Virus record (IMG/VR): IMGVR_UViG_3300047388_000216
Span: 1-39,603 of that record
DNA: 39,603 nt
From: a virus
Direction: 5' to 3' (one strand)
The translations under genes and the position numbers were made by a program. The notes beneath the pieces were generated by a model. It did no database searches. It had not been told where the DNA came from and worked only from the letters and a program-made list of their open reading frames with translations. Below, piece after piece: positions 4,228 through 34,976 of the stretch (position 1 is its first letter; the number at the start of each line of letters is the position of its first letter).

Positions 4228-4259
4228 GGCTGCTCCCTGGCGTATGCGACACATCTCAG

Positions 4260-4433: not shown

Positions 4434-4441
4434 TGGGCTAC

Positions 4442-5254: not shown

Positions 5255-5299
5255 AACGTAGTGATCCAGCCCCTGGTCTGCCGATAGAGCCCAGTCTCT

Positions 5300-5327
5300 G
5301 GTATAGGCACGACATGGTTAGTATAGT
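5300..5327. promoter_or_regulatory. overlapping divergent promoters of GntR gene and transfer operon
   Basis: TATAGT at 5322-5327 on plus fits a -10 box for the operon starting at 5350. On minus, CTATACC around 5300-5306 could serve the GntR gene starting at 5254. The two boxes lie within 28 bases, so a repressor bound here would control both. No good -35 elements are visible, which is common in actinobacteria. Assigning the GntR protein to this site is inference. Confidence 0.4.
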
Positions 5328-5349
5328 AGAACACTTGGGAGGGGACCAG

Positions 5350-5571: not shown

Positions 5572-5678
5572 GGCGGTGGTGGAGACGCTGGCGGTGGTGG
5601 GCGCTGTGGGCGCTGGTGCTGCTGGTCGCCGCAGCGGGGACGGCGCTGTGGGTCGTGGCCGCTTACCGCGGCAGTTGA
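5568..5678 (+). CDS. tiny membrane protein, 36 aa
   Basis: The GTG start forms a GTGA overlap with the previous stop. The 36-residue peptide has an Arg/Trp-rich head (RRWWRRWRWW) and one hydrophobic span (ALVLLVAAAGTALWVVAA). Tiny membrane proteins in this place resemble the spread (Spd) proteins of actinomycete conjugative elements, which help plasmid spread between hyphal compartments. The family link is by position and shape only. Confidence 0.55.
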   Translation: MRRWWRRWRWWALWALVLLVAAAGTALWVVAAYRGS

Positions 5679-5750
5679 CTTGGCGGCCAGCGGTTAGCGC
5701 GCAAACGCCTCCCGCTGGCCTAAGACCCCAAACCGAGTGAGGTCCTGAAG

Positions 5751-6290
5751 ATGAACCGTACAAGGCGCATCCGCCGCGCCGCTGGCGTGACCATGGCCGC
5801 GTTCGCGCTCATCGCCGCCGTCATCTCCTACAGCGACGGGCTGCTCCTTATCCGCCTCGCTGGTGTGACCGGGCGCATGGCCTACCTGTATCCGCTGCTG
5901 CCGGATGGGCTGATCGTCATCTCGTCGCTGTCGCTGTATGAGACAGCGGTGACGGGTGCGCCGAGGTCGCGGTGGGCGATGGCGGGAATCTTCCTCGGCG
6001 CGGGTTTGACGGTGGCGATGAACGTGGCGGCCGGGTGGTCGGTTTCGCCGCTGCTGGCAGTGGCGGACGGGTTCGTGCCGGTGGTGTTCTTCGTCGCTCT
6101 GGAGATCCTGATCGGGCTGATCCGCCGTGGCCGCGTAGCCGTACCCGTCCGCGTACCCGTGGCACGCCGGGAAGGGGTACGGGAGATCCGCGCCAAGCAC
6201 AAGGTGAGCTCGGCGACCGCAACCAAGATGCGGGACTACGCCACCGCGCAAGTCAAGGCCGCCAGCAACGGCCACGGAGGCGAGTCGTGA
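5751..6290 (+). CDS. DUF2637 membrane protein, 179 aa
   Basis: Four hydrophobic spans fill residues 10-125 (for example AAFALIAAVISYSDGLLLI and PLLPDGLIVISSLSLYETA), the hallmark of DUF2637. A cytoplasmic basic tail follows, with REGVREIRAKHKVSSATATK. Such proteins are almost always found beside TraB/FtsK genes in Streptomyces plasmids and integrative elements, where they count as spread or transfer-assisting proteins. It overlaps the next gene by GTGA. The biochemical role is unknown. Confidence 0.85.
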   Translation: MNRTRRIRRAAGVTMAAFALIAAVISYSDGLLLIRLAGVTGRMAYLYPLLPDGLIVISSLSLYETAVTGAPRSRWAMAGIFLGAGLTVAMNVAAGWSVSPLLAVADGFVPVVFFVALEILIGLIRRGRVAVPVRVPVARREGVREIRAKHKVSSATATKMRDYATAQVKAASNGHGGES

Positions 6291-6415
6291 TGCACTGGCT
6301 TATTCTCGCGGGCCTGGTTGCTGTCTTCATTGCCGCCGGGCGCTGGGCTGGGCGGCCGGGACGCGTCTGGAAGCGGACGGTGCGCCAGTGGCAGGGACGC
6401 GATCCCCATGAGTGA
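6287..6415 (+). CDS. single-span membrane protein, 42 aa
   Basis: This starts at GTG 6287 (GTGA overlap) or ATG 6290. The product has one transmembrane helix (HWLILAGLVAVFIAAGRWAG) and a basic tail (VWKRTVRQWQGRDP). It lies between DUF2637 and the TraB-like gene and overlaps the latter by 8 bases, so it is co-translated with the translocase and may be an accessory Spd-type protein. No family is recognised. Confidence 0.6.
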   Translation: MMHWLILAGLVAVFIAAGRWAGRPGRVWKRTVRQWQGRDPHE

Positions 6416-16124: not shown

Positions 16125-19100
16125 CTAGGACAGGCGGGAATCCCGCCAACGGGGGTAGAAGGTGGCCGTGAGCCCTGGTGCTCCCGCGTCCGGCGAGTAG
16201 GCAAGGAGCCATCCGGCGCCAGCGGGGTCGATGACCAGCGGCCCACCGGTCAGGATCATGTCGTTCGCGTCCAGCACGCTCGTGGCCTGCGCCCGGTCAT
16301 AGTCGGAGGCGAGGACACGGCCCCAGTCCCGGTCGGTCGACGGTTCGTCCAAATAGTAATTGACGTGCCCGGTGCCGGAGATGTTGATCGCCGCGGTCTG
16401 CCCGCGGACGTCGATCGCGACGATGTCGAGCGCCCTGTCGCTTGCGTTGGTCGAGTTGACGGCGGCGGTGTAGAACGCGGCGGTGTTGTCCTGGGCATGA
16501 TCACGGCACGGGAGGGTCAGCTCCCCGATGACGACGAATCCGTTCGCGATCGGCGGCGACTCCGTTGACGGGGTGAGGGTGCGGGCGACCGACCGGCTGG
16601 TGGAGGGGCCACCCACATAGTCGTATTGGCGGAACGTGACTGTGACGACCCTGGAGGCGGAGGGGGTGTTGATGGTGGAGAAGAACACGATGATCGTGTA
16701 CGTCCCGTAGTACCTTGCGGGCAGGCCGGGGACGGGGGAGGCGATCGTGTATTCGCGGCCGTCGGGTGGGTCGAGGCCGGAGCCGGCGGGGATGAGCGGG
16801 TTCAGCGTCGGCGGCGCCAGGTAGCTCGGCGAGTGCGCCAGCAAAGTCTTGAAGGCGGCGAGCGGCGGCGTGTAGGTGATCGTGACCTTCCCGGCGGCGC
16901 CGGCGGCGCCGGAGACGGAGCCGCCGATGGAGAACGACCCGCCACCGGGCACGACCCCGGCGTTGTTTCCGCCGGCCGCGCCACCAGCGCCGCCGCTGAT
17001 ACCCCCGGATGGTGCGGTCGCACCGGCCTGCCCGGCGGCGTTCACACCCGCCAGGGCGTCACCGGCTGAGGAACCGGCACCGCCGCCGGTGGTGGACGCG
17101 GTGAACCCGTTGCCGCCGTTGAACGTCGTCCCACCCGCCGGCACCACCGACGCGCTGGCCAGGCCCCCGCTGGCACCCGTGGCCGTGTTCACCGGGACAC
17201 TTTTCCCGCCGTCGGCGATGAACGCCGTCCCGTCGAACGTGGACGCGCCGCCGTCGGTCAAAGCGCCGGTGTTGAATGCCTGGATTTCGATCGCGGCCAT
17301 CGTCCACGTCTGGCTTGGGGCGGTCAGCCCGACCGTCACCGCCCCGGCGGTCGCCTGCGTCTGCCACGCGAAGTAGCCGGTGCAGTCACCGGCGGTCCAG
17401 TACTGCTCCTCGGTGGGGGTGCCCCGGTAGGTGCGGGCGCCGGTGCCCTGGTCGAAGTCGCCGTTCACCCAGGAAATCACGCTGTTGTTCGCGATCGTCG
17501 TCTCCACCGCGGACGGGGCGCCGGAGCCGGTCGCGTTGATCACCGCCGGGGACCCGGCGAGTTTCGCCCCGGACCACCGTTCCACGACGAACGCGTGGTT
17601 CTGCTGGCTGGCGGCGACGGTCAGGGAGATCGTCATCGCTGTTGGGGAGCCGCCTACGGTCGCGGTCCAGATGTCGGCGCGGCAGTGGGAGGTGACGTTC
17701 TGGTCAACCCTGTTGGTGAACGTCAAACCACCACCCGTGGGGGTGCCGAACGTCTGCGACCGTTCCGAGTTGAGCGCCTTGACCACGATGAGCTCGCCCG
17801 CCGTGGGGGTGAACGACGGTGTGACCAGCGTGTTGTAGTTCCACGCATCCTCATGATCGAAATAGCTGGCGACCAATGTGGGGAACCCGCCGGAACCGCC
17901 CGCGGCGCCGATGTAGCCGGAGAGAACCGTGCCGGGCACCAGCGGATACGTGGCGTGGGTGGCGCCAGCACCGCCGCCAGCACCCCCACCGGCACCTGCC
18001 GTGGTCCGGTCGCCGCCTTTCCCGGTGGCGCCCTTAACCGACACCGCGCCCACCGTGACACCCGCCGGCACCGGCCACGTGAACGGCCCCGCCGTGCTGA
18101 ACGTCACCGTCGCCGGCGTCGTGATAGGCGGCGACTGGAACTGGGTCGACATCGGCGCCCGCGCCGTCCCGCGGGGCGGGATCTGATAGAGGGTGCCCCT
18201 GATCGCGGCGATCGGGTTCTGCGCCGACGCGATGGCCGTCAAACCGTTCAGGTACGCCGCGCTGTCGAGCTCGAGGGCGCCGTCGCGGTCGACGAACCGC
18301 CACGCGTGGATGCTGTAGGAGTTGAGGTGGGTGTAGTCGAACGTGGCGGAGGTGGGGATGGGGAACGTGACCTGTGTCCACGTCGGGGACAGTGTGTTGT
18401 TCGACGCGACGCAGTACGCGACGCCGCCGGTTGACAGGGTGTGCGCCGCGTTGTCGGTGAGGGTGACGGCGAAGGTGACGTTCCCGGCGTGCCACGACTT
18501 GTAGTTGCTGGTGCCGAGGCCGAACTGAAACGTCAGGTTCGGCAGGCCGGTGATGTCCAGCGGCGCGGCGAGCGTATGCGTATAGAACGGACCGGAGTCC
18601 CGGTCGGTAACAGGCTGATTCCAGAATGCGGAGAACGAGTCGGCGACATGCTGGCTGGACTGCGTCCACCACCCGGCGGTCGTCTGCGTCGTCGTGGACA
18701 CCGTCGAGTAGTCGTCGATGCGGACCGGGTTCGCCGGCGTGGGGAACGACGACGGCGTGGGGAACACCAAAGTGGTCTGCGTGTCCGACCGGCCGAACGG
18801 CAACGCCGGGAACGTGATCGTCAGCTGCGAGACGAGGCTGTCCTCGAGGACCAGGTCACGGTTGACGACAGCGGTCGCCCGGAAACAGTCGAAGATCATC
18901 GGCAGCGCCGTGCCCGTCCCCGGGTCCGGCGTCCACGTCAGCCGCCACGTGTCGGCGTCCACCAGCTGCTGCAGCAGCTCCCGCGCGCCGTCCATGATGG
19001 GCCGCGACGGGCCCCGGATCTGGATCGGGAGCGAGATGGTGCGGTTGTCTGCGCGGCGCCCCACGGGAATCGATCCGTCCCTCAGCAAGCTAGCCACGAT

Positions 19101-19241
19101 TTCCGTCTGGGGCTGCGGTGCGCCGAAGTCGAAACCGACGAGGGTGATCTGCGCCCCCGGGCACAGCGGGTGCTGCGAGATGACACCGCCGCCGAGGAGC
19201 TCAACGACGTCAGCGAGGATCAGGCTGTCGGCTGCGCTCAC
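16125..19241 (-). CDS. large distal tail / fibre protein, 1038 aa
   Basis: Residues 1-165 have the look of a distal-tail (Dit-like) domain (CPGAQITLVGFDFG, SLPIQIRGPS, LVDADTWRLTWTPD). A galactose-binding-like beta domain follows (to about 330), then a long glycine-rich domain (GAGGGAGGGAGATHATYPLV, later ISGGAGGAAGGNNAG). A beta-sandwich of about 190 residues is inserted in the glycine-rich domain. The end is again beta-rich. It would link tail tube to receptor-binding parts. The GTG start overlaps the tape measure stop (GTGA). Confidence 0.85.
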   Translation of the reverse strand: MSAADSLILADVVELLGGGVISQHPLCPGAQITLVGFDFGAPQPQTEIVASLLRDGSIPVGRRADNRTISLPIQIRGPSRPIMDGARELLQQLVDADTWRLTWTPDPGTGTALPMIFDCFRATAVVNRDLVLEDSLVSQLTITFPALPFGRSDTQTTLVFPTPSSFPTPANPVRIDDYSTVSTTTQTTAGWWTQSSQHVADSFSAFWNQPVTDRDSGPFYTHTLAAPLDITGLPNLTFQFGLGTSNYKSWHAGNVTFAVTLTDNAAHTLSTGGVAYCVASNNTLSPTWTQVTFPIPTSATFDYTHLNSYSIHAWRFVDRDGALELDSAAYLNGLTAIASAQNPIAAIRGTLYQIPPRGTARAPMSTQFQSPPITTPATVTFSTAGPFTWPVPAGVTVGAVSVKGATGKGGDRTTAGAGGGAGGGAGATHATYPLVPGTVLSGYIGAAGGSGGFPTLVASYFDHEDAWNYNTLVTPSFTPTAGELIVVKALNSERSQTFGTPTGGGLTFTNRVDQNVTSHCRADIWTATVGGSPTAMTISLTVAASQQNHAFVVERWSGAKLAGSPAVINATGSGAPSAVETTIANNSVISWVNGDFDQGTGARTYRGTPTEEQYWTAGDCTGYFAWQTQATAGAVTVGLTAPSQTWTMAAIEIQAFNTGALTDGGASTFDGTAFIADGGKSVPVNTATGASGGLASASVVPAGGTTFNGGNGFTASTTGGGAGSSAGDALAGVNAAGQAGATAPSGGISGGAGGAAGGNNAGVVPGGGSFSIGGSVSGAAGAAGKVTITYTPPLAAFKTLLAHSPSYLAPPTLNPLIPAGSGLDPPDGREYTIASPVPGLPARYYGTYTIIVFFSTINTPSASRVVTVTFRQYDYVGGPSTSRSVARTLTPSTESPPIANGFVVIGELTLPCRDHAQDNTAAFYTAAVNSTNASDRALDIVAIDVRGQTAAINISGTGHVNYYLDEPSTDRDWGRVLASDYDRAQATSVLDANDMILTGGPLVIDPAGAGWLLAYSPDAGAPGLTATFYPRWRDSRLS

Positions 19242-22200
19242 CGGGGCACCATGCCGTTGAGCGCCCTGCCCAGGCCGACCGACGTAGCGGCGGGGGCGGC
19301 CCGGACGGCAGCGACGACCTCGCGGCGCATCGCCCGCACCTCCGCGAGCAGCGCCGTCATCTCAGCCCCGGAGATCACATGCTCCGGCCCGTTCTCCGCC
19401 AGCGCGTAACCCTGCCCGCTGCGCCCGTACCCCAGCACCGGCTCCCGGAGCACCCCGCCGCCGCCCATCTTCTTGAACCCGGCAGGCGGGACACCGGTCC
19501 ACATCAGCGGCGCGAACCGCAAGTTCTCCCACTGCGGGCCCATCCCGCCGCCCTGGCTGATGACGTGTCCGGCGTCGGCGACGATCGCGACATGCCCCGG
19601 CGGCGGCCCACCAGCCGGCGAGTTGTAAAACGCCAGGCCGCCGGGCACCGGCGCAGACCGCCGCACCCACGCGCCCTGCGCCTCCGACGTCCGCGGCGCG
19701 CTGATCCCGTGCCGGCTGTAGATCGTCTGGACGAACCCGCTGCAGTCCGCGCCACCCGGGACGGCGGTGCCGCCCCACACATACGGGATCTTGTACAGGT
19801 ACTGCTTGGCGTCCCTGACGATCGCGCTGCTCGACCCGGCCGCCGCTGCCGCCTTGAACTCCTTCATCACCTCGGCGGCCATCAGTTTGGCCTCGCCGGC
19901 GGTCATCGTCGTCTGCCGCTTACCGGTCTCGGTGTACATGGTTCCCGCACCGGCGACCTGGCCGACGAGCCCGCCAGCGGCGTACCTGACTATCGCCCGG
20001 CCGGCGTTGATCGCGTCCATCGCCTTGACGCCGTACTTGGCGACAGCGGCGGCCTTCTGCACGTATTCGCCGTGGCTGAGGAGGGCAAGGTTCGCGTCGG
20101 CGGTGGGGCCGCCGCGGCCGCGGACCATCCCGCCGGAGGCGAGCGGGTGAATGAAGAGGTTGGCCTTCACGTTCGGGAACGTCGAGGTGATCGCCACGCC
20201 GCCGTGGCCAGAGCCGGTGACGGTGACGTTGGTGTTGTGGTTCTTCGGGATGTTGCCGATCGCCGTGGTCAGCCTGTTGACCAGGGTTTTGGCCTGATCC
20301 GACGTCAGCCCCGACGACCTGAGGTCGGAGATAAGCTTCGACCGCGACGAGCGGGCCGCGTCGGAGTCGGTGCCGTTCTTACGGACCGCCGTGGTGTAGT
20401 TCTGCAGGTCGGTCTTGCCCTGCTGGGAGTTGCGGAACGCGTCACCAATGTCGGTGACCAGCCGCCGCCGCGCCGCCCGCGCGGCATCCGAGTTGACCCC
20501 GTTGTCCCTGACCGCTGTGGTGTAACGGTTCACGTCCGTACGGGCGGTCCCCGCGTTCACCCCGGCCTGCACCAGATCGGCGATCAGGTTCTTCCGCTGG
20601 GTGGTCGCCGCCTGCGACCCGATCCCGTTGTCCTTGATCGCCTGCGTGTAGTTCCCGAGCGCCCGGTCAGCGCCCCGGGCGCCGGTCTCCTGCCGGGTGA
20701 AATCGGCGGTGACAGCGGCTGTGGCCTTCTTAGAGTCGGCGGTGAGCGCGGCCGACCAGCGGCTCGACGAGGAGGTGATGGCACCCCGGACGTTATCGAC
20801 GATGTGCTCGACGTCATGCCCGAAGCTGGTCCAGCTGTTGAGAGCGCCCTTCCCCTTATCGGTGCCGAACGGGTTGTCCCACCAGTTCTTCCCTTTGCCG
20901 CTGGAGATGTCCTGGAGGGTGGGCTTGACGATCAGTTCGGTCACGGCGACCGCGACACCGCCCCGGATGATCCACTTCAGGCCGGTGCCGCGGGCCAGCC
21001 ATCCGAGGACGCCACCCTTCGCGGCGGCTCCCGCAGCGCCAGCCGCACCTCCAGCCGCGCCCTCACCGGCGGCGACGGCACCGCCGCCAGCCATCGCAGC
21101 CCTGATCTCCGCCGCGGCCGCCGCGCCGCCGGTGCGCATCGCGGCTTCCATTTCGCCGGCGGCAGTCGCACCGCCGAGGGTCAGGGTGCCGCCGGACAGC
21201 AGCTTCGAGCCGAACCCCACCAGTTTGAGCCCGGCCTTGATCACACCCAGTTTCGACAGCAGCAGCAGCGCCCCAGCGGCTTCAGTGAGTTCCCGCTGCC
21301 AGTTCGGCGGCAGCTTCGCAACCAGGTTCAGGAAACTGCCGAGGGCCTGCAGTTCCAGCGTCCCGACCGTCGTCGCGCCCTTGAAAATGCCGGGCAGGAT
21401 CGTCCCCAGATCCTTCAGGATGCCCTTGACCACCGGGCCCTCGTCGTGGAGGAACTGCATGAACCCCTGCACATCGGCGCGGGCCTTCGCCGACTTGCTC
21501 CACGTGAGGAACCCGTCACCGATCCCCGACAGCCACGGCCCGAACGCGCTGAAGTTCGCCCCGCTGGCAGCGAGATCCTTCCCCAGATTGAAGACGCCCT
21601 TGGCGATGTCGCCGATGAACTGCCCGATGCGGAAAAGCTGCTGCGCGGCGAAGTTCCCGAACGCCGCCGCCAGCTCCCTGATCCGCTGGGCGTGCACCGG
21701 GTCCTTGAAGTAGGTGTTGAGCGTGATCCCCCACAGAGTGAACGCGTCAGCGACCGGCTTGATCAGCGGCTTGAGGAACTTCAGCCCCTCCGTCAGCACC
21801 GGCAGCCACACATTCAGGGTGGGCACCGTGATCGCCTGGCTGATCGACTTCCACTTCTGCTGGAACGTCTGATACTGGTCGATCAGGTCCAGGTAGCCCT
21901 TCGACCAGCCTGCCTTCAGCGCGGCGATCGCCTGCTCGGCCGCCTTCTTCTGCGCCGGTGTGGTGGCCTTGAGCAGGGCCACGTTCAGCGTCTGCAGCTT
22001 CTGCAGATCCTTGCTGGCGCCTGACAGGACGGTCGTCGCCATCAGGCCGAACCCGGCCGACGCGAGCGCCGCGGCGCCGAAGCTGACACCGATCGCGCCG
22101 ACCCCGGCGGCGACCTGCGCGGCGAGGGGGATCAGCGCCGGCGACAGCGCCAGCGCCGACCCGATCGCCGACGGCTGCAGGAACGACATCTTCGACAGCT

Positions 22201-22534
22201 TGCTCAGGGCGCTGTCGTCAACGTGGATCTTGGTGCGCTGGGCGTTCAGCTTGTCCATCCGCAGCTGCAGCCGCTCGGCCTGGATCCGCGCCGCCCTGAT
22301 CTGGTCGTCGTTCATGTGCGTCGTGGTGACGCGCTTGTCCAGCTTGTCCAGCTTCAGGCCGATGTCGTCATAGGCGAGCTTGAACTGCCTGTCATCGAGG
22401 CCGAGCTTCGGCGTCGCTTTCTTGCCGTCAAGCTTGTTCAGGTCCTCGTTCAGCTTGTCAGCGCTGGCAGCGATCTTGGCAAAGGCGGCCGACGCATCGT
22501 CAGTCGCCCGCACCACGTACTGGAGAGTCGCCAC
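19238..22534 (-). CDS. tape measure protein with NlpC/P60 peptidase domain, 1098 aa
   Basis: The N-terminal 120 residues are coiled coil (KLNEDLNKLDGKKATPK). Hydrophobic segments follow (ALALSPALIPLAAQVAAGVG), typical of tape measures. Residues about 625-755 hold three related 38-residue repeats. The C-terminal part is an NlpC/P60 domain with Cys931 (GGADCSGFV), His981 (GHVAIV) and a third polar residue near 990, which would cut cell-wall peptides during DNA entry. The length suggests a tail of roughly 160 nm. The GTG start follows the chaperone stop by three bases. Confidence 0.92.
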   Translation of the reverse strand: MATLQYVVRATDDASAAFAKIAASADKLNEDLNKLDGKKATPKLGLDDRQFKLAYDDIGLKLDKLDKRVTTTHMNDDQIRAARIQAERLQLRMDKLNAQRTKIHVDDSALSKLSKMSFLQPSAIGSALALSPALIPLAAQVAAGVGAIGVSFGAAALASAGFGLMATTVLSGASKDLQKLQTLNVALLKATTPAQKKAAEQAIAALKAGWSKGYLDLIDQYQTFQQKWKSISQAITVPTLNVWLPVLTEGLKFLKPLIKPVADAFTLWGITLNTYFKDPVHAQRIRELAAAFGNFAAQQLFRIGQFIGDIAKGVFNLGKDLAASGANFSAFGPWLSGIGDGFLTWSKSAKARADVQGFMQFLHDEGPVVKGILKDLGTILPGIFKGATTVGTLELQALGSFLNLVAKLPPNWQRELTEAAGALLLLSKLGVIKAGLKLVGFGSKLLSGGTLTLGGATAAGEMEAAMRTGGAAAAAEIRAAMAGGGAVAAGEGAAGGAAGAAGAAAKGGVLGWLARGTGLKWIIRGGVAVAVTELIVKPTLQDISSGKGKNWWDNPFGTDKGKGALNSWTSFGHDVEHIVDNVRGAITSSSSRWSAALTADSKKATAAVTADFTRQETGARGADRALGNYTQAIKDNGIGSQAATTQRKNLIADLVQAGVNAGTARTDVNRYTTAVRDNGVNSDAARAARRRLVTDIGDAFRNSQQGKTDLQNYTTAVRKNGTDSDAARSSRSKLISDLRSSGLTSDQAKTLVNRLTTAIGNIPKNHNTNVTVTGSGHGGVAITSTFPNVKANLFIHPLASGGMVRGRGGPTADANLALLSHGEYVQKAAAVAKYGVKAMDAINAGRAIVRYAAGGLVGQVAGAGTMYTETGKRQTTMTAGEAKLMAAEVMKEFKAAAAAGSSSAIVRDAKQYLYKIPYVWGGTAVPGGADCSGFVQTIYSRHGISAPRTSEAQGAWVRRSAPVPGGLAFYNSPAGGPPPGHVAIVADAGHVISQGGGMGPQWENLRFAPLMWTGVPPAGFKKMGGGGVLREPVLGYGRSGQGYALAENGPEHVISGAEMTALLAEVRAMRREVVAAVRAAPAATSVGLGRALNGMVPR

Positions 22535-24773: not shown

Positions 24774-25256
24774 TTACGAACCGATGAACGATATGAACGT
24801 GACCTGGAACGCGACCTGCGCCGTCGTGCCGTCCGAGGTGGACTGCTGCAGCCCGATCCCCGACACCCCGGGACTGCCCTGGTCCGCGAGGCCGCCAAAC
24901 TTGTCCGCGTTGCCGCGGATCAGGTCTTCAACGGCGGCGAGGATCGCGAACGCCTGCGCGCGGACCGTCCGGGAGTCGTCGGTGCCCGCCCACGCCACCG
25001 CCGCACAGTGGATCGTGACCGTCTCCTGCCGCCCCCGGGTAGAGCCCATCCGCGCCTGCTCGGAGCTCGCCGAGATGGGGGCCTGGTCGGTGAACACGTC
25101 ATCGACGCCGACGTACAGCGCCAGCTGCGCCGGGGCCGCGGTGACCACGGGCCCGTCGAAGACGAGCACCGGCGGTGTGGCGGCGCCGAGGGTGGGCGCG
25201 GCGTTGAACAGGTTAAACAGGTAGTCGATCAGCGGCCCGATACGGCTGGTGGTCAC
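24774..25256 (-). CDS. tail terminator / head closure protein, 160 aa
   Basis: The product has the typical layout of neck proteins: an N-terminal helix (IGPLIDYLFNLFNA), a beta strand with a Gly-rich approach (PAQLALYVGVDDVF), a central sheet (RQETVTIHCAAVAWAG), a helix (RAQAFAILAAVEDLIRG) and a final strand (QVAFQVTFISFIGS). It follows the connector gene by GTGA overlap. It would cap the tail tube or close the connector. The exact neck position is inferred. Confidence 0.7.
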   Translation of the reverse strand: MTTSRIGPLIDYLFNLFNAAPTLGAATPPVLVFDGPVVTAAPAQLALYVGVDDVFTDQAPISASSEQARMGSTRGRQETVTIHCAAVAWAGTDDSRTVRAQAFAILAAVEDLIRGNADKFGGLADQGSPGVSGIGLQQSTSDGTTAQVAFQVTFISFIGS

Positions 25257-26140
25257 CGGGCGAACACCGAATCCGCGAACGCCATCCCGTTCAGGTGGCC
25301 GTTGAGCAGTTCAGCGGCGTAGTTGGGCACAGCGAACCCGAACCCCGGCGGCGTCACCAGCTCCATCCCGCCGCCCATCGACGGCCGCGACGCCGGGCCG
25401 TGCTGGGTGTCCCACAGATGCTGCAGGATGATCCGCGCCGCCAGGTTGATCGACGGCGGCACCGCAGTGCCCCACCCAGCGACATAGGTGACGAGGACCA
25501 CTGTCGAATCTGATGAGAACGGGGAACCGTCTTTGCGGCGGATCGTGCGGGCGGCCGGGTTGATGTCCAGCCCGGCGGTGATGTCGATCGTGGTGCCGGA
25601 CAGGACCGACGTGACCGACGTGACGGAGACGAGGGGACGCTGCTTGACCTGCAGCATCTGGTACCAGCCGGCGAATTCGCACCGTTCGGCGGTGATCGTC
25701 TTGTTGACCATGGGGCCGCCGGTCATGCCCCGCAGCGACGCCTCGATCGTCGCGATGTAGGACGCGATCTCCGTGTCGTTGCTGGTTGTGGCCTGCGGGA
25801 TGTTGAGCATGTCTTTCCCGTCCTGCAGGGACAGGACGGCCGTCTCGAACGGGTCGTGGATGTCGAACTCGCCGAACGAGACACCGGCGCCGGTGCCCGT
25901 GCTCGTCCAGCTGTATTGGTAGTGGCCGACGCTGGCGAGGTCGGTGACGGGGATGTCCTGGTGGTACAGGCCGAGGCCGTCATGGGCGGGGGTGGCGTAG
26001 GTGCCGGTGGTCGTCCACGTGCCGTCCACCGCGGCGAGTTTCACCAGCAGCGTCAAAGCGCTTGCGTCGACGAGGGCGCCGGTGACGTCGCGGACGGTGG
26101 TACTGAGGCGAATGGGCTGCTGGCTGGGATACCGGCTCAA
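25253..26140 (-). CDS. head-tail connector (gp6-like) with N-terminal beta domain, 295 aa
   Basis: Residues 105-160 (SLQDGKDMLNIPQATTSNDT, IASYIATIEASLRGMTG) are a gp6-like connector that binds under the portal ring. About 100 residues of an extra beta domain (TTVRDVTGALVDASALTLLV, LYHQDIPVTDLASVGHYQY) precede it, similar to an Ig-like module. The TTG start overlaps the previous stop (TTGA). The fusion may expose the beta domain on the neck. Confidence 0.8.
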   Translation of the reverse strand: MSRYPSQQPIRLSTTVRDVTGALVDASALTLLVKLAAVDGTWTTTGTYATPAHDGLGLYHQDIPVTDLASVGHYQYSWTSTGTGAGVSFGEFDIHDPFETAVLSLQDGKDMLNIPQATTSNDTEIASYIATIEASLRGMTGGPMVNKTITAERCEFAGWYQMLQVKQRPLVSVTSVTSVLSGTTIDITAGLDINPAARTIRRKDGSPFSSDSTVVLVTYVAGWGTAVPPSINLAARIILQHLWDTQHGPASRPSMGGGMELVTPPGFGFAVPNYAAELLNGHLNGMAFADSVFAR

Positions 26141-28254
26141 CCCGGGCCTCCTGTCCGCTTGTCTCCCGCTGTGAGCGCCCCAGACGGCGCTGTAGCGGCT
26201 GTGAGGGTGCTGGTGGTACCCGAGGCCACCAGGACCGCTGTCGGCTTGTCAGCGGCGCTCAGGGCGCCGACGGTGAACGGTGCGACGATCGGCGCGGTGT
26301 AGGTGCCAGCCCGCCACCGGGAGCGGCCGGTGAGGACCGGCCGCTGTGGCTGGCCGCGCACCGGGCGGCGCAGCGGGATCGTGGGTGGGCCGGTCTGCCC
26401 GTACGGGCCGCGCTGCGACGCGACCCGGCCGCGGGTGGGCGGTGGCGGCTGCCGCCGCGACACCCCGATGGGGCCTTGCTGCGGCTTGACTGGTGGCCCG
26501 GTCTGGGCGTAGGTGCCGGCGCGGCGCACCACCCGCCCGCCCTGCAGCGGCTGGCGTCTCGCCTGCACCGGGTGGCCGAGCGGGTAGACGGTGGGCCCAG
26601 CCTGCGGCACACCCGAGGTGAGTGTCCCCGCGCGGCTGGCGACCGTCCCACCGCGGCGCGGCGCAGGCTGGGCCTTAACCGGGCCAGCGGGTGCCTTGAC
26701 CGGCGGTCCAGTTCCGCCGTAGACCCCCGCGGCCCGGGTGACACGCCCGCCCCGCGCGGGCTGCCGCCGCGCCTGGACGGGGTGGCCGAGTGGGTAGATG
26801 GGGGGCCCGGCGCCGAGGACGACAGCCGTGTATGTCCCCGTGCGGCTTTGCGTGCTGCCGCCGCGGCGCGGGAGCTGATGCGCCTGCACCGGCCCCGTAG
26901 CGGGTTTGACCGCCGGGCCGAGTTGCCCGTAGACGCCGCTGCGCCCGGCGGTGCGGCCACGGGCTGGCAGGCCCCGCAGCTTCCCGGCGACCGCGGACGC
27001 GAGCGCCTTGACCGCCGGACCCACACCGCCGAACGTGCCGGTACGGCGGGTGACCTGGCCACCGCGGACCGGCTGCGGGATCCTCGCCCGGGCCGGCCCA
27101 TCGGCAGGCGTGACCGGTGGCCCCGTCTGCCCGTAGACACCGTCGCGGCTCGTGACACTGCCGCCGCGGCGCGGCAGCAGCCTCGCCTGAACCGGGCCAG
27201 TTCGCGGCAGAGGCGGCGCAGCGGCAGCCGGCGTGGCGGCGGGGGCCGCGATACCACCAGCGGCACGGCCACGCGGGCCGACGATGGGGCGGCGTGAAAC
27301 CTTCCGCGCATACCCGGAGACACGCTGGTAAACGGCCGGCTGGACGGCGGGTTTCGGGCCTGCTTCACCGGCGCCGGTGACGTTCGCCAGGGGGCCGACG
27401 CGGGCGCGGGCCGGTGCGGGGCGTTTCCCGGGGCCGCCCATCCACGTCATCGGCGGCATGACCGGGCCGGGTGTGCCCAGGATCAGCGGCGGCACCGGCA
27501 CCGGGGACGGCGATGGGGGCGCGTAGAACGGTGTCCCGCCCGGCTCACCCGGCAAGCCACGGCCCGGATGCCACCCCGGGCCGTAAAGCGCCGCCACCGC
27601 CCCAGGAGCCGCCGCGCTCCCGGCGATGCCCTTGACCTCGACAGCGACCTTCGCGAACGTCCCCGACGACGTCTCACCCGTCGTCCCATAGGACGTGGTG
27701 CCCGTCGAGCCCTGGTCGCCCCAGTCAGCGACGTAGATCGTGTACGGCGTGAACGCCGCATGCTGCCGGTCATGACCGACGGTGGGCGTGAAGCTGTACC
27801 CGGTCGACGCTGCCGCTGAGAAGTCGCCCGCCGCGGAGACGACCATCGAGTTCGCCGCGACGCGGGTCAGGCTGATCGTCTTCGCGGTCGTCTTATCGAC
27901 GACCGGGGTACCCACGCCGCCGGGGCCGCGGAACACCCACAGCCCGACACCCCACGCGTGGGTGTTCACCCCACCGTCGGCCGACACGGCAGCGACCGCG
28001 ACACTCGTCTGGTCCGATGTGGCGGTCGCGGTGAAGACACCCGCGAAACACGTCGACCCGGCCGTGCCCGTCGTCGTCGAGGTGAACGTCAGGCCGAACT
28101 GGTTAGCGACCGTGACCGTACACGCGAAATCCTCAGTGAGGGACGCGACAACGATCAGGTCGCCGTTCAGCCACGACGTGACCGGCAGCGACTTGTTCGC
28201 CCCGGTCGTGTTCCAGACAGTCTCTACATAGGAGACCAGGGTCGGGGCGGGCAT
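26137..28254 (-). CDS. beta-sandwich plus basic 33-37-residue repeat protein, 705 aa
   Basis: Residues 1-210 are a beta-sandwich (SWLNGDLIVVASLTEDFACT, NSMVVSAAGDFSAAASTGYS) related to a domain inserted in the large tail protein. A Pro-rich linker follows. Residues 353-653 hold about nine repeats of 33-37 residues built on GPVQAR, PRRGG, a Ser-Arg pair, GVYGQTGPPV and a Pro. They are strongly basic, Gly/Pro-rich and free of Cys. The end is Ala/Thr-rich. It sits with virion genes, so a surface filament, adhesin or DNA-contacting internal protein are all possible. Confidence 0.75.
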   Translation of the reverse strand: MPAPTLVSYVETVWNTTGANKSLPVTSWLNGDLIVVASLTEDFACTVTVANQFGLTFTSTTTGTAGSTCFAGVFTATATSDQTSVAVAAVSADGGVNTHAWGVGLWVFRGPGGVGTPVVDKTTAKTISLTRVAANSMVVSAAGDFSAAASTGYSFTPTVGHDRQHAAFTPYTIYVADWGDQGSTGTTSYGTTGETSSGTFAKVAVEVKGIAGSAAAPGAVAALYGPGWHPGRGLPGEPGGTPFYAPPSPSPVPVPPLILGTPGPVMPPMTWMGGPGKRPAPARARVGPLANVTGAGEAGPKPAVQPAVYQRVSGYARKVSRRPIVGPRGRAAGGIAAPAATPAAAAPPLPRTGPVQARLLPRRGGSVTSRDGVYGQTGPPVTPADGPARARIPQPVRGGQVTRRTGTFGGVGPAVKALASAVAGKLRGLPARGRTAGRSGVYGQLGPAVKPATGPVQAHQLPRRGGSTQSRTGTYTAVVLGAGPPIYPLGHPVQARRQPARGGRVTRAAGVYGGTGPPVKAPAGPVKAQPAPRRGGTVASRAGTLTSGVPQAGPTVYPLGHPVQARRQPLQGGRVVRRAGTYAQTGPPVKPQQGPIGVSRRQPPPPTRGRVASQRGPYGQTGPPTIPLRRPVRGQPQRPVLTGRSRWRAGTYTAPIVAPFTVGALSAADKPTAVLVASGTTSTLTAATAPSGALTAGDKRTGGPG
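26296..27198 (-). repeat. about nine coding tandem repeats of ~100-110 bp
   Basis: The repeat block of the 705-aa protein is visible in DNA as alternating segments such as GTGCAGGCGCG and CGGCGCGGC. Two units (residues 491-510 and 561-580) share HPVQARRQP with nearly the same following GGRV. Variation in length (33 versus 37 residues) comes from insertions like TAVVLGAG and TSGVPQAG. Unit number could change by slippage or recombination. Confidence 0.7.
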
Positions 28255-28283: not shown

Positions 28284-28889
28284 TCAGCCGAGCAGTTCGC
28301 AGGTCAGCTCGTTCGTGGTGATGCTGGTGATACCGGTCGCGGTCGTGACGGTACAGCCGACCTGGATGCACTGCGCGTTGTAGGTGATCATCCCCGTCGC
28401 GGTCTGCGCGACCGTCTGCGCGCCGACCGACTGCGGCGCGATGTTCACCGTCTCCGCCGTGACCCAGGACGTGACGTTCGCGGTGAACCGGCCACGGCCG
28501 ACGATCGACCCCGTCGTGCCCGTCGTCGTGGACACAGCGGCGATGAGACCCCAGTATTCGAGCTGCCACGGCATCGTGGTGGCGACCGCCGTGACCGCCG
28601 GGCCCAAAGTCAGTACTGCCGGGGTCGTCAGGATCGTGACCCCCGGGTTGTTCATGTAGAACCCGAACGCCATCGTCGACGCGGTCGTCGTCGCGATGTA
28701 GGAACCCCAGGCGACGATCCGCAGGCGGGTGCCCAGGTTCAGCATCCCCGCCGGGATCTCATACTGGCCGCCGATCGTGCCTGACGCCGCCCCAGGCGTG
28801 ATGTCCAGCACCGCCGCCGTGATCGTGGACTGCACGAACGGCTGGTTGTTGCCTATCGCGGCAGGCGCCGACCACTGCGTTGACGGCAT
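28284..28889 (-). CDS. beta-rich virion-region protein, 201 aa
   Basis: The product has repeated strand-turn patterns (NLGTRLRIVAWGSYIATTT, MPWQLEYWGLIAAVSTTTG) and resembles phage surface jelly-rolls seen between capsid and connector genes in large actinophage head modules. No catalytic motif is visible. The downstream gap (28255-28283) contains the ribosome site of the 705-aa gene in a small GC hairpin. Its role as a decoration or adhesion protein is inferred. Confidence 0.65.
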   Translation of the reverse strand: MPSTQWSAPAAIGNNQPFVQSTITAAVLDITPGAASGTIGGQYEIPAGMLNLGTRLRIVAWGSYIATTTASTMAFGFYMNNPGVTILTTPAVLTLGPAVTAVATTMPWQLEYWGLIAAVSTTTGTTGSIVGRGRFTANVTSWVTAETVNIAPQSVGAQTVAQTATGMITYNAQCIQVGCTVTTATGITSITTNELTCELLG

Positions 28890-29592: not shown

Positions 29593-30078
29593 TTACTCGC
29601 TGAACACCAGGTCAGCGACATACGTCGTCGACGTCGCCGCCGTCGCCGTCACGAACAGGTGCAGCCCAGAGTTCGCCGCCGCCGTCGCGATCGCCGGGAC
29701 CTGCCACTCATACCCCGCCGGCGGGAACTCCTCCCACGACGACCCCGACGTCTGCGGCAGCTCCTGCTCCCACAGCACCGTCCCGATCGTCGGCGCCGTC
29801 GACCAGGTGAGCGCCTGCGACGAAATCGAGTTCGGCGCCGAGAAGTCATGCGCCGGCACCGTCGCGAGCCCGGTCGCGGTGTGCGTGTTCCCAGGACGGG
29901 CCAGCTGGAACAGGACGCTGGAGCCGACGATCGCCGTCGTCGCCTGGACATCTATGCGGACCCCGACGACCCACGCCCGTTTCGTCGCCGGGCTGATCAG
30001 GGACATCAGCGGCGTCGCAGCCGTCGTCGCCACCGTCACTATCCCGGACCGCGCGGTGTAGACGTCGCTGATAGCCAT
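29593..30078 (-). CDS. beta-rich virion-region protein, paralogue A, 161 aa
   Basis: The product begins MAISDVYTARSGIVTVATTA. Its second half, LPQTSGSSWEEFPPAGYEW then GLHLFVTATAATSTTYVADL, closely parallels the next gene upstream (30094-30612). This looks like a tandem duplication of a virion surface protein. No enzymatic motif is present. It belongs to the expanded region between capsid and connector. Confidence 0.7.
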   Translation of the reverse strand: MAISDVYTARSGIVTVATTAATPLMSLISPATKRAWVVGVRIDVQATTAIVGSSVLFQLARPGNTHTATGLATVPAHDFSAPNSISSQALTWSTAPTIGTVLWEQELPQTSGSSWEEFPPAGYEWQVPAIATAAANSGLHLFVTATAATSTTYVADLVFSE

Positions 30079-30093: not shown

Positions 30094-30612
30094 TCACTCG
30101 GTGAATTCGAGCTCGCCGGCGAACGTGGTGCCGGTACCAGCCGACGACGCGGTCACGAACAGGGCGAACTTCGTCGAGATCGGGATGTTGATCTCAAACC
30201 CGGGCGTGAACCACTCACCCCACGACGACCCCGCGGTGAACGGCACCGACTGCGCCCACAGTTCGGTTGTCATCGTCACCGTCGTGATCGCCGCCGCCGA
30301 CGTGCCACCCGCCGTCAGGAACGTCGTGTTCGCCGCCAGTGCCGACCCGCCCGACAGCAGCCGCGCCACCGCCGCGTTACCACCGGCCTGCGCACCCGTC
30401 GCGATGTTCAGCGAGAACACCACCGACGCGTTCGCCGGGAACGACGCCGCACCCATCACGCTGCAGCGGATCGCGGAAATGTTCACGTCCTGCGTGGCGA
30501 TGGTCGTGCCGTGCAGGAGCGGGATCGGGGTCGTCACCGTCGACGTGCCACCGGTGGCGAGGGGCGTCGAGGTGTCGAAGACGCCGACCTTGTAGTAGCG
30601 GGCAATGGCCAT
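30094..30612 (-). CDS. beta-rich virion-region protein, paralogue B, 172 aa
   Basis: Parallel to 29593-30078: VPFTAGSSWGEWFTPGFEI then KFALFVTASSAGTGTTFAG, with both ending in a short acidic strand (FSE versus FTE). The N-terminal half has diverged more. The protein would be made with its paralogue and may assemble in mixed arrays on the capsid. ATG 30612 is clear. Confidence 0.7.
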   Translation of the reverse strand: MAIARYYKVGVFDTSTPLATGGTSTVTTPIPLLHGTTIATQDVNISAIRCSVMGAASFPANASVVFSLNIATGAQAGGNAAVARLLSGGSALAANTTFLTAGGTSAAAITTVTMTTELWAQSVPFTAGSSWGEWFTPGFEINIPISTKFALFVTASSAGTGTTFAGELEFTE

Positions 30613-30620: not shown

Positions 30621-31127
30621 TCACTTTCCCTCAGGTTTCACCGCGGTTGCCCGCACGTCGCACGGGAACGCCTGCACATCCACCAGCACATCCGCCCACC
30701 CCGCCGCAGACAGCGCCAGCGCCAGCTCAGCCGGGCGGATGTTCGCGTAATGCTCCCCCGGCAGCAGCCGGAACTCCCCATCCACCGCCGAATGAGGCGG
30801 CCGTCCGGGTGCGGCGGTGGTGACGATGAACCGGCCCCCGGGCGAGCACGCCGTGTAGGCGGTGCGGATGATCGCCCGCCATGCCGCGGTGTGCTCGAAC
30901 GTCTCGGCGCAGATCACCACGTCCCACCAGTCGGTCGGCTGCCATGTGGCGGCGTCTGCGGCGATGTCCACCCCCGGGCCGTCGCGCAGGTCCAGCACCG
31001 TGTAGCAGATGGCGCCGGGGAACAGGTGCTCGGGGGTGCCGTTGATGTCCCGGCCGCCGAGGTCCAGTACCTTCACCGGCTCGCTGGTGGCGTACTTGGC
31101 GATCCACTGCATTGCCTGGTCATGCAC
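30621..31127 (-). CDS. class I SAM-dependent methyltransferase, 168 aa
   Basis: Residues 19-30 (KVLDLGGRDING) are the SAM-binding motif I, Asp46 in VLDLRDG is the ribose-binding acidic position, and DVVICAETFEH (69-79) is motif IV/VI. GTG 31127 is preferred since it overlaps the glycosyltransferase stop by 8 bases and begins just before the fold. The substrate is unknown. Direct coupling to a glycosyltransferase suggests modification of a virion glycan or of the sugar donor. Confidence 0.85.
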   Translation of the reverse strand: MHDQAMQWIAKYATSEPVKVLDLGGRDINGTPEHLFPGAICYTVLDLRDGPGVDIAADAATWQPTDWWDVVICAETFEHTAAWRAIIRTAYTACSPGGRFIVTTAAPGRPPHSAVDGEFRLLPGEHYANIRPAELALALSAAGWADVLVDVQAFPCDVRATAVKPEGK

Positions 31128-32553
31128 TGGTGTGCTCGTCCCGCCGCGCGGTGAACAGTTCCCGGTCCTGGTCGATGTGCTCGCGGCCGAGGGCATACGT
31201 GGCGTCGTCTTCGGCGCCGCCCCACAGCGGGTGCAGGTGCTCGACCTTCGAGTGGAACGCCATCACCCATGCGTCCCGCTGCTTCGCCGCGGTCACGATC
31301 TCGTCGTCCACGAACCAGTGCCGGTAGCCCTCATGGGCGACGACCTTCGGGCCGTCCCAGGACCCGCCGCGCTCGTCCACATAGGCGCGGCGGACCAGCA
31401 GATGCGTCGCGTGGTCGCCGGCCGTCACCCGCGGATTGTGCAGATCGTTCGTGCCGATGACGTCGGCGCCGTCGCGGGCGGCATGCTGCGCCTGGTCGAG
31501 CCACCCGGGATGGAACTTCACGTCGTCGCCGGTTAGGAACAGCCACGGCTCGGAGGTCATGGCGTAGCCGAGGTTGACCTTCTCCGCGAACGTCCCCGGC
31601 GGCTCGCCGCCGCGGTACAGGATCTGTGCCCCGGCGTCTCCCCACGCATTCGCCGTCTCCATATCCGCCCCGTCGATGACCGCGTACACGGTGGCGAGCG
31701 GCGCACCCGATGCGGCGAGCGAGGCCATGAACGGTGCCGCGTTCTGCGGGCGGCCCAGCACCGGGACGATGACCGCCGTCTCCTCGGTGGCGTCCGGCAC
31801 TGGCGGAACCATCTGGGCGAGGGCGACCTGCCCGTAATAGTCGTCCTCGGCGAGCCACAGCGTCTTCTGATGCGTCGTCTTGACCCCGGTGTGGACGTGG
31901 ATCGGGATGTCCAAAGCGCAGGCACGCAGGCACAGCGACAGATCCTCGCTGATGACCTGCCCCATGGTCGTGTTCGGCACCCGGTCATACCACGTGCCGT
32001 ACTCAGCCTGGACCTTCTCGAACACCGACCGGTGGATCAGCACACACGCCGACCCGGTACCCGCGACCCGTGTCAGCGTGTCCGGGGCGTAGTTCCACCG
32101 GACGCTGAACCCCATCTGCCCCGCGTCCTCGAGGACGGTCCAGTCGAACACGGTGGGTGTGGCGCGGCACCGCCACCCGCCCATCCCGTCGGAGGTCTCT
32201 TCCCGCTGCGTGAAGCACAGCCCGCCGACGACCGGCCGCTCTTCGGGGTCGGCGGCGGCCATGAGCCGGTCGATCGTGTCCGGCGCGAACCCCATGTCGG
32301 TGTCGATCCAGAACAGCCAGTCCGCCGTGTCCTCAGCGAGGAACGCGGCGACGAGCTTGTTCCGCGAATCGACCAGGCCGTCGGTGCCGCACGTCCACGC
32401 CTTGTAGCCGCCGCGGATGATCCGCGCCTCGTGCGCCAGGTCCCACCCGATCATCTCGATCATGCAATGGTGAAATGACGCGGCGAGGTTCTTCTCATGC
32501 ACGTAGGCGACAGTGACCGCCCCGGCGCGGTCTTCCGGTGCGGGGTCAGCCAC
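31120..32553 (-). CDS. two-domain glycosyltransferase, 477 aa
   Basis: The N-terminal half is a GT-A fold with WLFWIDTDMGF (Asp84-Thr-Asp86, metal-binding) and VISEDLSLCLRA. The C-terminal half is a second GT2-like domain (AVIVPVLGRPQN near 260, VYAVIDGAD, WLFLTGDDVKFHPGWL with Asp343-Asp344). GTG 32553 overlaps the previous stop by 8 bases; the in-frame upstream part is low-complexity. It probably transfers sugars to capsid or decoration proteins, as shown for some mycobacteriophages, with the methyltransferase acting next. Confidence 0.85.
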   Translation of the reverse strand: MADPAPEDRAGAVTVAYVHEKNLAASFHHCMIEMIGWDLAHEARIIRGGYKAWTCGTDGLVDSRNKLVAAFLAEDTADWLFWIDTDMGFAPDTIDRLMAAADPEERPVVGGLCFTQREETSDGMGGWRCRATPTVFDWTVLEDAGQMGFSVRWNYAPDTLTRVAGTGSACVLIHRSVFEKVQAEYGTWYDRVPNTTMGQVISEDLSLCLRACALDIPIHVHTGVKTTHQKTLWLAEDDYYGQVALAQMVPPVPDATEETAVIVPVLGRPQNAAPFMASLAASGAPLATVYAVIDGADMETANAWGDAGAQILYRGGEPPGTFAEKVNLGYAMTSEPWLFLTGDDVKFHPGWLDQAQHAARDGADVIGTNDLHNPRVTAGDHATHLLVRRAYVDERGGSWDGPKVVAHEGYRHWFVDDEIVTAAKQRDAWVMAFHSKVEHLHPLWGGAEDDATYALGREHIDQDRELFTARRDEHTSA

Positions 32554-32791
32554 GGCGCACCGCGGCCCGCTTCTCCCCCGGCCCGGCGGTCGCCTGCTCC
32601 ACCGGCGCCTCCGACAGCTCCGGCGGCGGCGACGAGAACGACACCCCATACCGGGCGTCGGTGCTGAACCTGCCCGGGTCGGCCTTCACCACCGGGTCGT
32701 CCGCGGGCCAGTGCTGCCCGCCCTGCACGTTGTGCCGGCCCCCGTCAGGGGTCTCCACCTGCCCGCCATATTTCGCGTACACGACCTGCAT
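32546..32791 (-). CDS. small head-module protein, 81 aa
   Basis: The product (MQVVYAKYGGQVETPDGGRH, NVQGGQHWPADDPVVKADPG) is a type of short protein found after major capsid genes in actinophages. The Pro/Glu-rich second half is probably disordered. It overlaps the glycosyltransferase start by 8 bases. A role in capsid stabilisation is only a guess. Confidence 0.65.
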   Translation of the reverse strand: MQVVYAKYGGQVETPDGGRHNVQGGQHWPADDPVVKADPGRFSTDARYGVSFSSPPPELSEAPVEQATAGPGEKRAAVRRG

Positions 32792-33497: not shown

Positions 33498-34976
33498 TCA
33501 CGAGTTCGCGACGAGGAGGCGGAACCCAGCGGTGTTGCTGGAATCGGAACCTATCCGTGCGTAGGCGAACCAGCCGCGCTGTCCCGTCGGGACCGCAGGC
33601 CCCGAGCCCGCAGTGACCTGCTGGAACAGCTGCGGCACGAGCTCCACCGACATGCCGCCGTTGCGGGCGACGACAAAGTTGGCGAAGTCGCCGACGATCG
33701 CCTGCCCCTCCGCCGTGGTCGTCCACGTGGTCGTGTCGGGCATGTACGCCGACTCGTACACGGGCCGGTTGAACAACTGGTCGGCCCAGCCTTCGGGCAG
33801 GTTGACGGTGTAGCCGTGGAACACGTTCGCGGCGCCGATCTGCCGGATCGCGTTGTTCACACCCACACTCATCAGCCAGGACGCGTTGCGGCGGTACTTC
33901 TGCGGCAGCGCCTTCCACACCAGGTACGGGTCCGGGGCGCCGATCGTGCCGCCGGTGGTGACCTTCACCCGGTCACCCGCGACCGCGGAGATCGCGGTGA
34001 GGATGCCCTTCGGCTCGTTCGTGCCGGAGCCGATGGTGAACTTCTGCACCAGCAGCTCGTCGTAGCCCTGCGCCAGCAGCGTGGACATCTCCGACGCGAA
34101 CCCGGGGTAGTCCATCCCGACCTCAATCGAGTAGGGGATGAACCCGCGGGCCATGTGGACGAGGACGGCGGGCTGCGCCAGCACCGGGCTGTTGTCGGTG
34201 ACGGCGGCGGCTTCAGTCTGGAACGCCCACGTCACACCAGCGGAGGAGACGCCCTTCCACTGGTTCGTATTAACGGTCACTTGTTTTGCAATTGCCAGGA
34301 ATGGATTGCCGCTTTCCTGGGCGGTTAGGATAATGGACGGATCTATGAATACAGGTATGCCGAACCCGCCCGCTGTGGTCGTCCAGTCACCCAGCGCACG
34401 GAACTCGTACCACGCCTGCACCGCCCGGTTCTCCTCCGGGGACAGCACCGGATGCGGGTCGGTGACCATCTTCATCCACGCCGACCGGTAGTCCTCGTTC
34501 TCGGTGACGAGGAGCCGCCGGGCGGTGACATGGTCGCGGCGGACCCACTTGTCGACCTGCGTCTTCTGCGCATCGGACAGTTCGGATGCGTCGCGGGAGT
34601 CGAGGATCCGCAGCGCCCGGTCCCGCGCCTCAGTGTTCGTCATCCGCCGCGTGTCGCCGGCGGGGTCGTCGAGGCCGTAGCGGATGTTCGCGTACGCCTG
34701 CTGCACCTGCTCGGGACGGCGGCGGAACACCTCGCTGATCTTGCGGTGCTCCTCGAGCCGGTTCAGGATCTCCTCCCGCATCTGCAGGCCGAGGTCGAAC
34801 GCGCCCTGCTCGGCGTCGTCGAGGTCGCGGATCTCCCCGTCGTCGGTCTGATGCAGCGACTTCAGGTGCGCGTCGAGGACCTCGAACAGTTGCCGCAGCT
34901 CGTCGGGGGTGCGGCCCCGCAGGTCGTCCATGCTGCCGGGGAGGAAGTCCGCCCGGTTCTCATCGGTGGTGGTCAT
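33498..34976 (-). CDS. HK97-fold major capsid protein, 492 aa
   Basis: The first 160 residues are a long coiled-coil delta domain (ELRQLFEVLDAHLKSLHQTD, EQVQQAYANIRYGL), removed by the protease during maturation. From about 190 the HK97 fold begins (WTTTAGGFGIPVFIDPSII) and continues with KQVTVNTNQWKG, DELLVQKFTIGSGTNEPKGI and FVVARNGGMSVELVPQLFQQ. The length fits the T = 7 type siphovirus capsids. A stretch of AT-rich codons lies at 34266-34360. ATG overlaps the protease stop (ATGA). Confidence 0.95.
   Translation of the reverse strand: MTTTDENRADFLPGSMDDLRGRTPDELRQLFEVLDAHLKSLHQTDDGEIRDLDDAEQGAFDLGLQMREEILNRLEEHRKISEVFRRRPEQVQQAYANIRYGLDDPAGDTRRMTNTEARDRALRILDSRDASELSDAQKTQVDKWVRRDHVTARRLLVTENEDYRSAWMKMVTDPHPVLSPEENRAVQAWYEFRALGDWTTTAGGFGIPVFIDPSIILTAQESGNPFLAIAKQVTVNTNQWKGVSSAGVTWAFQTEAAAVTDNSPVLAQPAVLVHMARGFIPYSIEVGMDYPGFASEMSTLLAQGYDELLVQKFTIGSGTNEPKGILTAISAVAGDRVKVTTGGTIGAPDPYLVWKALPQKYRRNASWLMSVGVNNAIRQIGAANVFHGYTVNLPEGWADQLFNRPVYESAYMPDTTTWTTTAEGQAIVGDFANFVVARNGGMSVELVPQLFQQVTAGSGPAVPTGQRGWFAYARIGSDSSNTAGFRLLVANS

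Follow-up and report, generated by a model that had tools for sequence, protein, structure and literature searches.

Repeat-rich proteins encoded in the structural regions of phages are usually left 'hypothetical', and the question raised by this locus is what a 705-aa protein (P0001) with a basic Gly/Pro-rich repeat array does among the head genes of a soil phage. The DNA analyzed here is referred to as the window; it is a linear record of IMG/VR type, 39,603 bases long, with a G+C content of ∼68% and no tRNA genes. Along the minus strand, portal, protease, capsid and glycosyltransferase genes (all assigned by PHROG) are followed by small beta proteins, P0001, the head-tail adaptor, the major tail protein, the tape measure and Dit. 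The slot of P0001 thus lies between the portal-protease-capsid genes and the adaptor, in agreement with the first-pass annotation of this DNA, which had assigned the repeats to the head gene region. The capsid protein of the window is 33-38% identical to the listed capsid proteins of Gordonia and Mycobacterium phages. Features of the locus are collected in Table 1; related records are designated L followed by a number.

Table 1. Features of the P0001 locus in window coordinates
Feature	Position	Strand	Basis
P0001, 705-aa modular slot protein: N-domain, linker, repeat array, C-tail	26137..28254	-	ORF translation, unit comparison, AlphaFold2, unit HMM
N-terminal beta-sandwich, residues 1-211, interchangeable among relatives	27622..28254	-	AlphaFold2, BFVD matches, homologs on other arrays
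Pro/Gly-rich linker, residues 213-352, partly homologous to the start of the L039 W-type array	27199..27618	-	z 17.7; phmmer E 3e-11
GPV-type array, residues 353-653: eight clear units and a degraded ninth	26296..27198	-	unit comparison, unit HMM, dN/dS
C-terminal tail, residues 660-705 (FTVG...TGGPG), conserved, tracks adaptor lineage	26140..26277	-	alignment A5; profile in 29/41 records
Head-tail adaptor gene, marker of the slot	25253..26140	-	PHROG 442, E 1e-17
b161, paralogue of b172 (31% identical), partner of W-type arrays	29593..30078	-	co-occurrence; clade
b172, small jelly-roll protein, partner of GPV arrays	30094..30612	-	AlphaFold2 mean pLDDT 86; co-occurrence; clade support 100/100
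Major capsid protein gene, upstream border of the interval	33498..34976	-	PHROG 10, E 3e-30
Second N-domain copy, residues 453-659 of the Dit-type tail protein	17265..17885	-	hhalign 94.6%, E 7e-8; Dit via PHROG 33, E 3e-7

A basic repeat array in a three-part protein

The array had been described as nine repeats, and its span corresponds exactly to codons 353-653 of the P0001 frame. Comparison of the units upheld eight of them as clear repeats of 33-37 residues, while the ninth is degraded and runs into the C-terminal tail. In order, the nine are 33, 34, 34, 37, 33, 37, 33, 36 and 34 residues long, and within units 4-7 forms of 37 residues that end in YPLG alternate with forms of 33 residues. 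Pairwise comparison of the units gives a mean BLOSUM62 score of 52.6 versus -8.8 (sd 1.7) for shuffled sequences, none of which (0/500) reached the observed value. The cores quoted in the first-pass annotation are consensus-like, with GPVQAR found exactly at residue 353, HPVQAR at 491 and 561, and PRRGG three times. Units share 44% of their residues and only 46% of their third codon bases, which points to a protein repeat rather than to recent DNA slippage; Tandem Repeats Finder reported nothing over the array. The composition is as basic as had been stated, with 47 lysines and arginines against 2 acidic residues in 301, and residues 231-659 carry a net charge of +57.

In single-chain AlphaFold2 models residues 1-211 form an all-beta domain (block mean pLDDT 60-94, most >77), and the remainder is essentially unstructured, with no strands and pLDDT mostly 30-50; no ordered model of the array was obtained, in line with the disorder predicted earlier. 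In a Foldseek search of BFVD the fold of the N-domain resembles that of minor tail proteins from actinophages (probability 1.00, E from 2e-6 to 1e-3, TM (target) up to 0.66), with Mycobacterium phages Hawkeye and Shauna1 and Gordonia phage GodonK among the named matches. Fold searches of the PDB with this domain returned common beta arrangements only (Z up to 6.2), profile searches of the PDB with N-domain and array queries gave nothing at E 1, and P0001 matched no family in Pfam or PHROG. The beta-sandwich recurs in the Dit-type protein, as had been noticed, and was not found in P0007 (hhalign 0.1%). P0001 thus shares a domain fold with actinophage minor tail proteins and differs from them in that its gene lies in the head region, not at the tail tip after the tape measure, and in that the rest of the protein consists of repeats; the copy in the Dit-type protein does lie in the tail-tip region. 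Three features go beyond the first-pass annotation: the conserved C-tail, the partner genes b172 and b161, and a homology in the linker, where part of residues 226-345 is related to a second array type, called W. Compared with L039 the linker scored z 17.7, and z ≤2.6 with every other slot protein tested; the phmmer domain that matches the W array of L039 extends over residues 226-411.

An HMM of the unit was built from units 1-8 of the window; it recovers those eight in P0001 and leaves the degraded ninth unscored. With this profile we counted 7 units in L014, 8 in the window, 9 in L059, 10 in L013, 11 each in L002 and L007 and 13 in L005, as well as at least 14 in L004 and at least 15 in L003, whose frames end at the contig edge. 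The dN/dS values between the array protein of the window and seven relatives (0.27-0.46) indicate purifying selection. The first-pass annotation had named, as part of what would speak against its reading, a lack of length variation or of conserved cores in relatives; unit number varies (7-15), the cores are conserved and selection is purifying, so that the reading passes on the sequence half. The repeats are confirmed to be real, coding and under selection. Within one near-identical population, L007 and L011 differ by 35 substitutions and one deleted base over 7.6 kb. Twenty-three of the 35 substitutions are packed into 258 bases of the array (L007:5321-5578), a cluster that looks like a recombination or conversion tract, and the 1-base deletion in L011 breaks the frame upstream of it.

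Exchange of modules in the slot

A scan with the adaptor gave 35 loci, in 28 of which the upstream frame carries the motifs of the C-terminal tail. A profile of this tail was found in 29 of 41 whole records, two of the 29 having it in short frames. All 29 belong to the 31 records whose adaptor is close; the 10 other records gave no match. Ahead of the tail the arrays are of several types, labeled by hand after reading the sequences: GPV, W (RPAPRRAVWRG-like), other basic, Ala/Gly/Thr-rich, DRREVPQQR-type and acidic DTGTASD-type. Judged by tail genes, the nearest relative of the window is L017/L031, with 91% in the major tail protein; it shares the N-domain (47%) and has a nearly identical C-tail, yet its array is Ala-rich. 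The N-domain of P0001 is joined to four or more array types (in the window, L012, L013, L015 and L031), and GPV arrays follow several N-termini that are unrelated to one another. A tree of 33 adaptor rows, from which L053 (a duplicate), L057, L060 and L064 were left out, shows at least 17 changes of array type among the labeled rows. A paired test that also left out the truncated or array-less L032, L041, L042, L047, L049 and L062 had three well-supported pairs and a median p of 0.25, which is not significant alone. As judged from these comparisons, the slot in uncultured relatives encodes a modular protein with an interchangeable N-terminal beta domain, an interchangeable array and a C-tail that follows the lineage of the adaptor.

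Several arrangements of the slot were observed besides. In L030 the slot protein is encoded at 3517-5583; in L016, a contig of 128 kb, N-domain and array are two adjacent genes (5001-5723 and 5992-7959). A short PGQTWLRRFHH-like motif links N-domain and array in several unrelated combinations (L003, L009, L031, L033, L045, L054, L059), and by eye one kind of beta-rich domain lies in frame inside two unrelated arrays (L003:1-3033 and L039:2461-5313).

Array composition and gene neighborhood bear on the jobs that have been proposed for the repeats. Binding of the basic array to packaged DNA or polyphosphate would suit its charge of +57. Net charges across those slot proteins that were scored range from -30 to +65. 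In 18 of the 28 the array in this slot is near neutral or acidic (net -30 to +9), and for this reason we regard such a job as highly improbable. A glycosyltransferase gene lies within the structural operon of the window (31120-32649, minus strand) and likewise upstream in many relatives, next to a frame at 30621-31196 that appears by eye to be methyltransferase-like. Members of the glycosyltransferase family are found between the capsid gene and the slot in 9 of the 30 records with this stretch at hand, so that glycosylation of the virion is possible; its presence has no association with array type in these records (p=0.69, Fisher, kinship ignored), and the suggestion that the repeats serve as a glycosylation acceptor found no support. 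The remaining proposals, a surface filament or host adhesion, fit best, given the minor-tail-type N-domain and the contents of the same interval in relatives, where pectate-lyase, GDSL, apiosidase, polysaccharide-deacetylase, K1-lyase C-terminal and tail-fibre domains were found. Apiosidase, polysaccharide deacetylase and K1-lyase C-terminal domains are located at L037:1810-3264, L061:3846-6995, L050:2818-4656 and L038:5189-6991; enzymes of adsorption are not usually encoded in the interval from head to adaptor.

As far as the consulted parts of the literature go, the described protein that comes nearest is gp54 of mycobacteriophage Tweety, in which conserved ends flank a GC-rich tandem repeat that varies in number and composition between relatives (PMC2884959, PMC9262239). 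According to the same passages gp54 has tetrapeptide repeats beginning with Ala-Ala, is encoded outside the structural operon and has a counter-defence role (PMC2884959, PMC9262239). P0001 resembles it in its conserved C-tail, its varying number of GPV units and its interchangeable arrays; its N-domain is not conserved, its units have 33-37 residues instead of four, and those passages describe no cognate partner of gp54. By analogy, the slot protein could act inside the infected cell, for example in counter-defence, with repeat number tuning the action. The position of the gene between capsid and adaptor genes, the minor-tail-type N-domain and the adhesin-type neighbors in the interval make this very unlikely.

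Small jelly-roll proteins that match the array type

Upstream of the array the window encodes two paralogous small proteins, b172 and b161, neither of which matched PHROG at E 0.01. The predicted fold of b172 is a jelly roll of the viral-capsid or TNF-like type. Its fold matches include ExsFA, ExsF and the GP4 cement protein 8h89_J (Z 7.1, rmsd 3.6, 123 aligned), a score in the range of common arrangements, as for most of its matches. Genes of this b family are present in 13 of the 41 whole records: 7 of 9 with GPV arrays, 6 of 6 with W arrays and none of 26 others, several of the latter being short contigs. In both GPV records lacking a b gene (L003 and L004) the contig begins inside the array. 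Relatives of b172 accompany GPV arrays and relatives of b161 accompany W arrays in all 13 discovery records, and the b tree divides, with 100/100 support, into two clades that coincide with the two array types. In an unbiased scan of upstream gene families the b family had the lowest p value (Fisher, kinship ignored), with some b172 genes missed through displacement by longer overlapping frames. Furthermore, the divergence of GPV arrays parallels that of b172 (8 phages, Mantel rho 0.92, p 0.0014; 0.82, p 0.009 without L016), even across chassis whose adaptors are remotely or not detectably alike. Divergent b-like genes were also seen near two other basic arrays, in L012 (33%, E 2e-6) and L033 (E 0.02).

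The match was checked on new contigs by reciprocal scans with b172 or b161 alone as the query, which gave 24 and 28 loci. Arrays were scored as GPV by the HMM and as W by phmmer, and new contigs needed at least 2 kb downstream. Set aside were 12 new loci with <2 kb downstream (8 for b172, 4 for b161; an array was visible in none) and 16 loci already known or assigned to a known population; L080, which shows GPV, was assigned to the population of L007 by an equal 74% match only. A GPV array was present on 6 of 6 new b172 contigs and a W array on 18 of 18 new b161 contigs, 16 of them directly and two (L109, L110) farther downstream; dereplication of the b161 set, with L117/L118 and L124/L125/L126 joined, left 15 of 15. 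Overall the partner matched the array in 24 of 24 new contigs, or 21 of 21 without near-identical ones, and no purely discordant pair was found among them. The W assignments of L118, L122 and L123 are weaker, L122 and L123 having matched the L034 query only (5e-7 and 2e-5) and not the L045 segment. The W class is heterogeneous, since L034-type arrays are tied to the rest solely via the truncated L041.

Both b types occur together, among loci with classified arrays, in the window and in L117/L118 only, and only the arrays of these loci mix both kinds of unit. L117/L118 encodes b161 together with a second gene that scores better as b172 (98 versus 57 bits), and its array consists of a GPV stretch (profile A1, E 1e-9; weak with the single-unit HMM) followed by W units; in the window the order is reversed, with the GPV units preceded by the stretch that matches the W array of L039. 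A W match at E 0.01 was absent in twelve GPV-bearing proteins of these loci. A further contig, L076/L100, carries b172 and b161 identical to those of the window and ends before the array.

As read from these genomes, the new finding is that the array type is accompanied by a matching small upstream jelly-roll protein. Array and b genes lie within a few kb of each other in one interval, a linkage that aids co-inheritance, and phage modules travel together; the two proteins might never touch and merely be inherited jointly, through closeness or through a common suitability for a host surface. Against this, the set of genes separating array and b varies among phages (none in L014, several in L002), and GPV chassis have strongly divergent adaptors. 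The b clade also agrees with the array type in 37 of 37 records that have a b gene and whose array is classified (13 from the discovery set and 24 new ones, near-identical contigs counted). We therefore consider inheritance without contact unlikely.

A proposed docking model and its partial precedents

The matching of array and partner across related phages suggests that repeats and jelly roll fit together on the virus particle. We infer, with a probability of about one half, that P0001 is a modular virion-surface protein in which the array docks cognate jelly rolls, the C-tail fixes the protein to the chassis and the N-domain is displayed for adhesion. The disordered basic array would act as a string of docking sites on which each repeat would bind a cognate jelly roll, singly or as a trimer, with b172 on the GPV units and b161 on the short stretch of W type that precedes these units. 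Anchored by the C-terminal tail to its own phage chassis, P0001 would present the beta-sandwich at the other end for adhesion. Repeat number would set both the count of gathered jelly rolls and the reach of the N-domain. The assembly could be placed on the head, with the b protein as a cement protein, or at the neck. The b proteins are mostly slightly acidic (net -6 to +3), which together with the basic array fits docking and is no proof of it. A more elaborate version, possible and in our view with the odds somewhat against it, is a two-component coded appendage: many jelly rolls would be threaded on the disordered strand, the repeat sequence would pick the jelly roll, array and partner would be exchanged as a matched pair with the C-tail kept by the chassis, and mixed strands as in the window and L117 would carry mixed subunits.

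Cognate pairs that move together are known from tail fibres and their Tfa chaperones, and the b/array pairs are similar in that the partner type matches the module across genomes (13/13 discovery records and 24/24 new contigs); they are unlike Tfa pairs in that the matched part is the array, not the fibre tip. An assembly chaperone that serves its own array and is absent from the final virion would be expected to show the same one-to-one matching from a gene a few kb upstream. Yet the predicted disorder of the array leaves little fold to chaperone, and the fold of b172 is that of a viral or TNF-like jelly roll with a capsid cement protein among its matches, so we think this role, too, rather unlikely for b172 and b161. 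For docking on the virion there are partial precedents. A repeat-bearing head protein is gp12 of SPP1, a collagen-like head decoration; P0001 has no Gly-X-Y pattern, glycine does not occupy every third residue, and the units span 33-37 residues. The gp1 protein of GP4 is a trimeric capsid cement protein of a size similar to b172 (PMC9698820). Like gp1, b172 is all-beta and encoded in the head region; the likeness is one of fold only, at the common-arrangement score given above and with no sequence relation shown, and the part of that report consulted here describes no link of gp1 to a repeat protein (PMC9698820). In the exosporium the ExsF trimer docks a Gly/Pro-kinked peptide of a fibrous protein, as described for BclA/F-Anchor leader peptides in a preprint (PMC11952670). 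That system differs from P0001 in having one leader peptide instead of an array. The repeats are no more similar to the peptide bound by ExsF than expected by chance, with z 0.1 for the window and a highest value of z 2.3 over 37 slot proteins.

The first-pass annotation had known similar repeat proteins only from environmental actinophages. This holds insofar as no isolate phage in INPHARED matched P0001, an array or the adaptor: tblastn with low-complexity masking gave no match for P0001, the adaptor, two slot proteins, b172, b201 (28284-28889) or the GPV array. The major tail protein of the window had a sole match there, Streptomyces phage ZL12 (33%), whose INPHARED annotation names no such slot protein. 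Genome contigs scanned with the array and adaptor profiles gave no confirmed match, so no host was found, and the titles and abstract openings listed in searches of open-licence literature give no account of these repeats or of an array/partner pairing. With a repeat class that has a genetically matched partner, and a match checked on new contigs, the job of such a protein becomes testable with two small proteins. If binding holds, it would provide a programmable peptide/jelly-roll pair and a rule for how phages exchange the modules of their surface, namely the N-domain, the array with its partner, and the C-tail.

Two further frames of the window were observed in passing. The tape-measure protein (gene at 19238-22534, minus strand) contains an NlpC/P60 domain in residues 917-994 (Pfam, E 2e-11). 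A 724-aa frame on the plus strand (6318-8492) resembles by eye an FtsK/SpoIIIE-type translocase; translocases of this kind occur in actinobacterial integrative elements.
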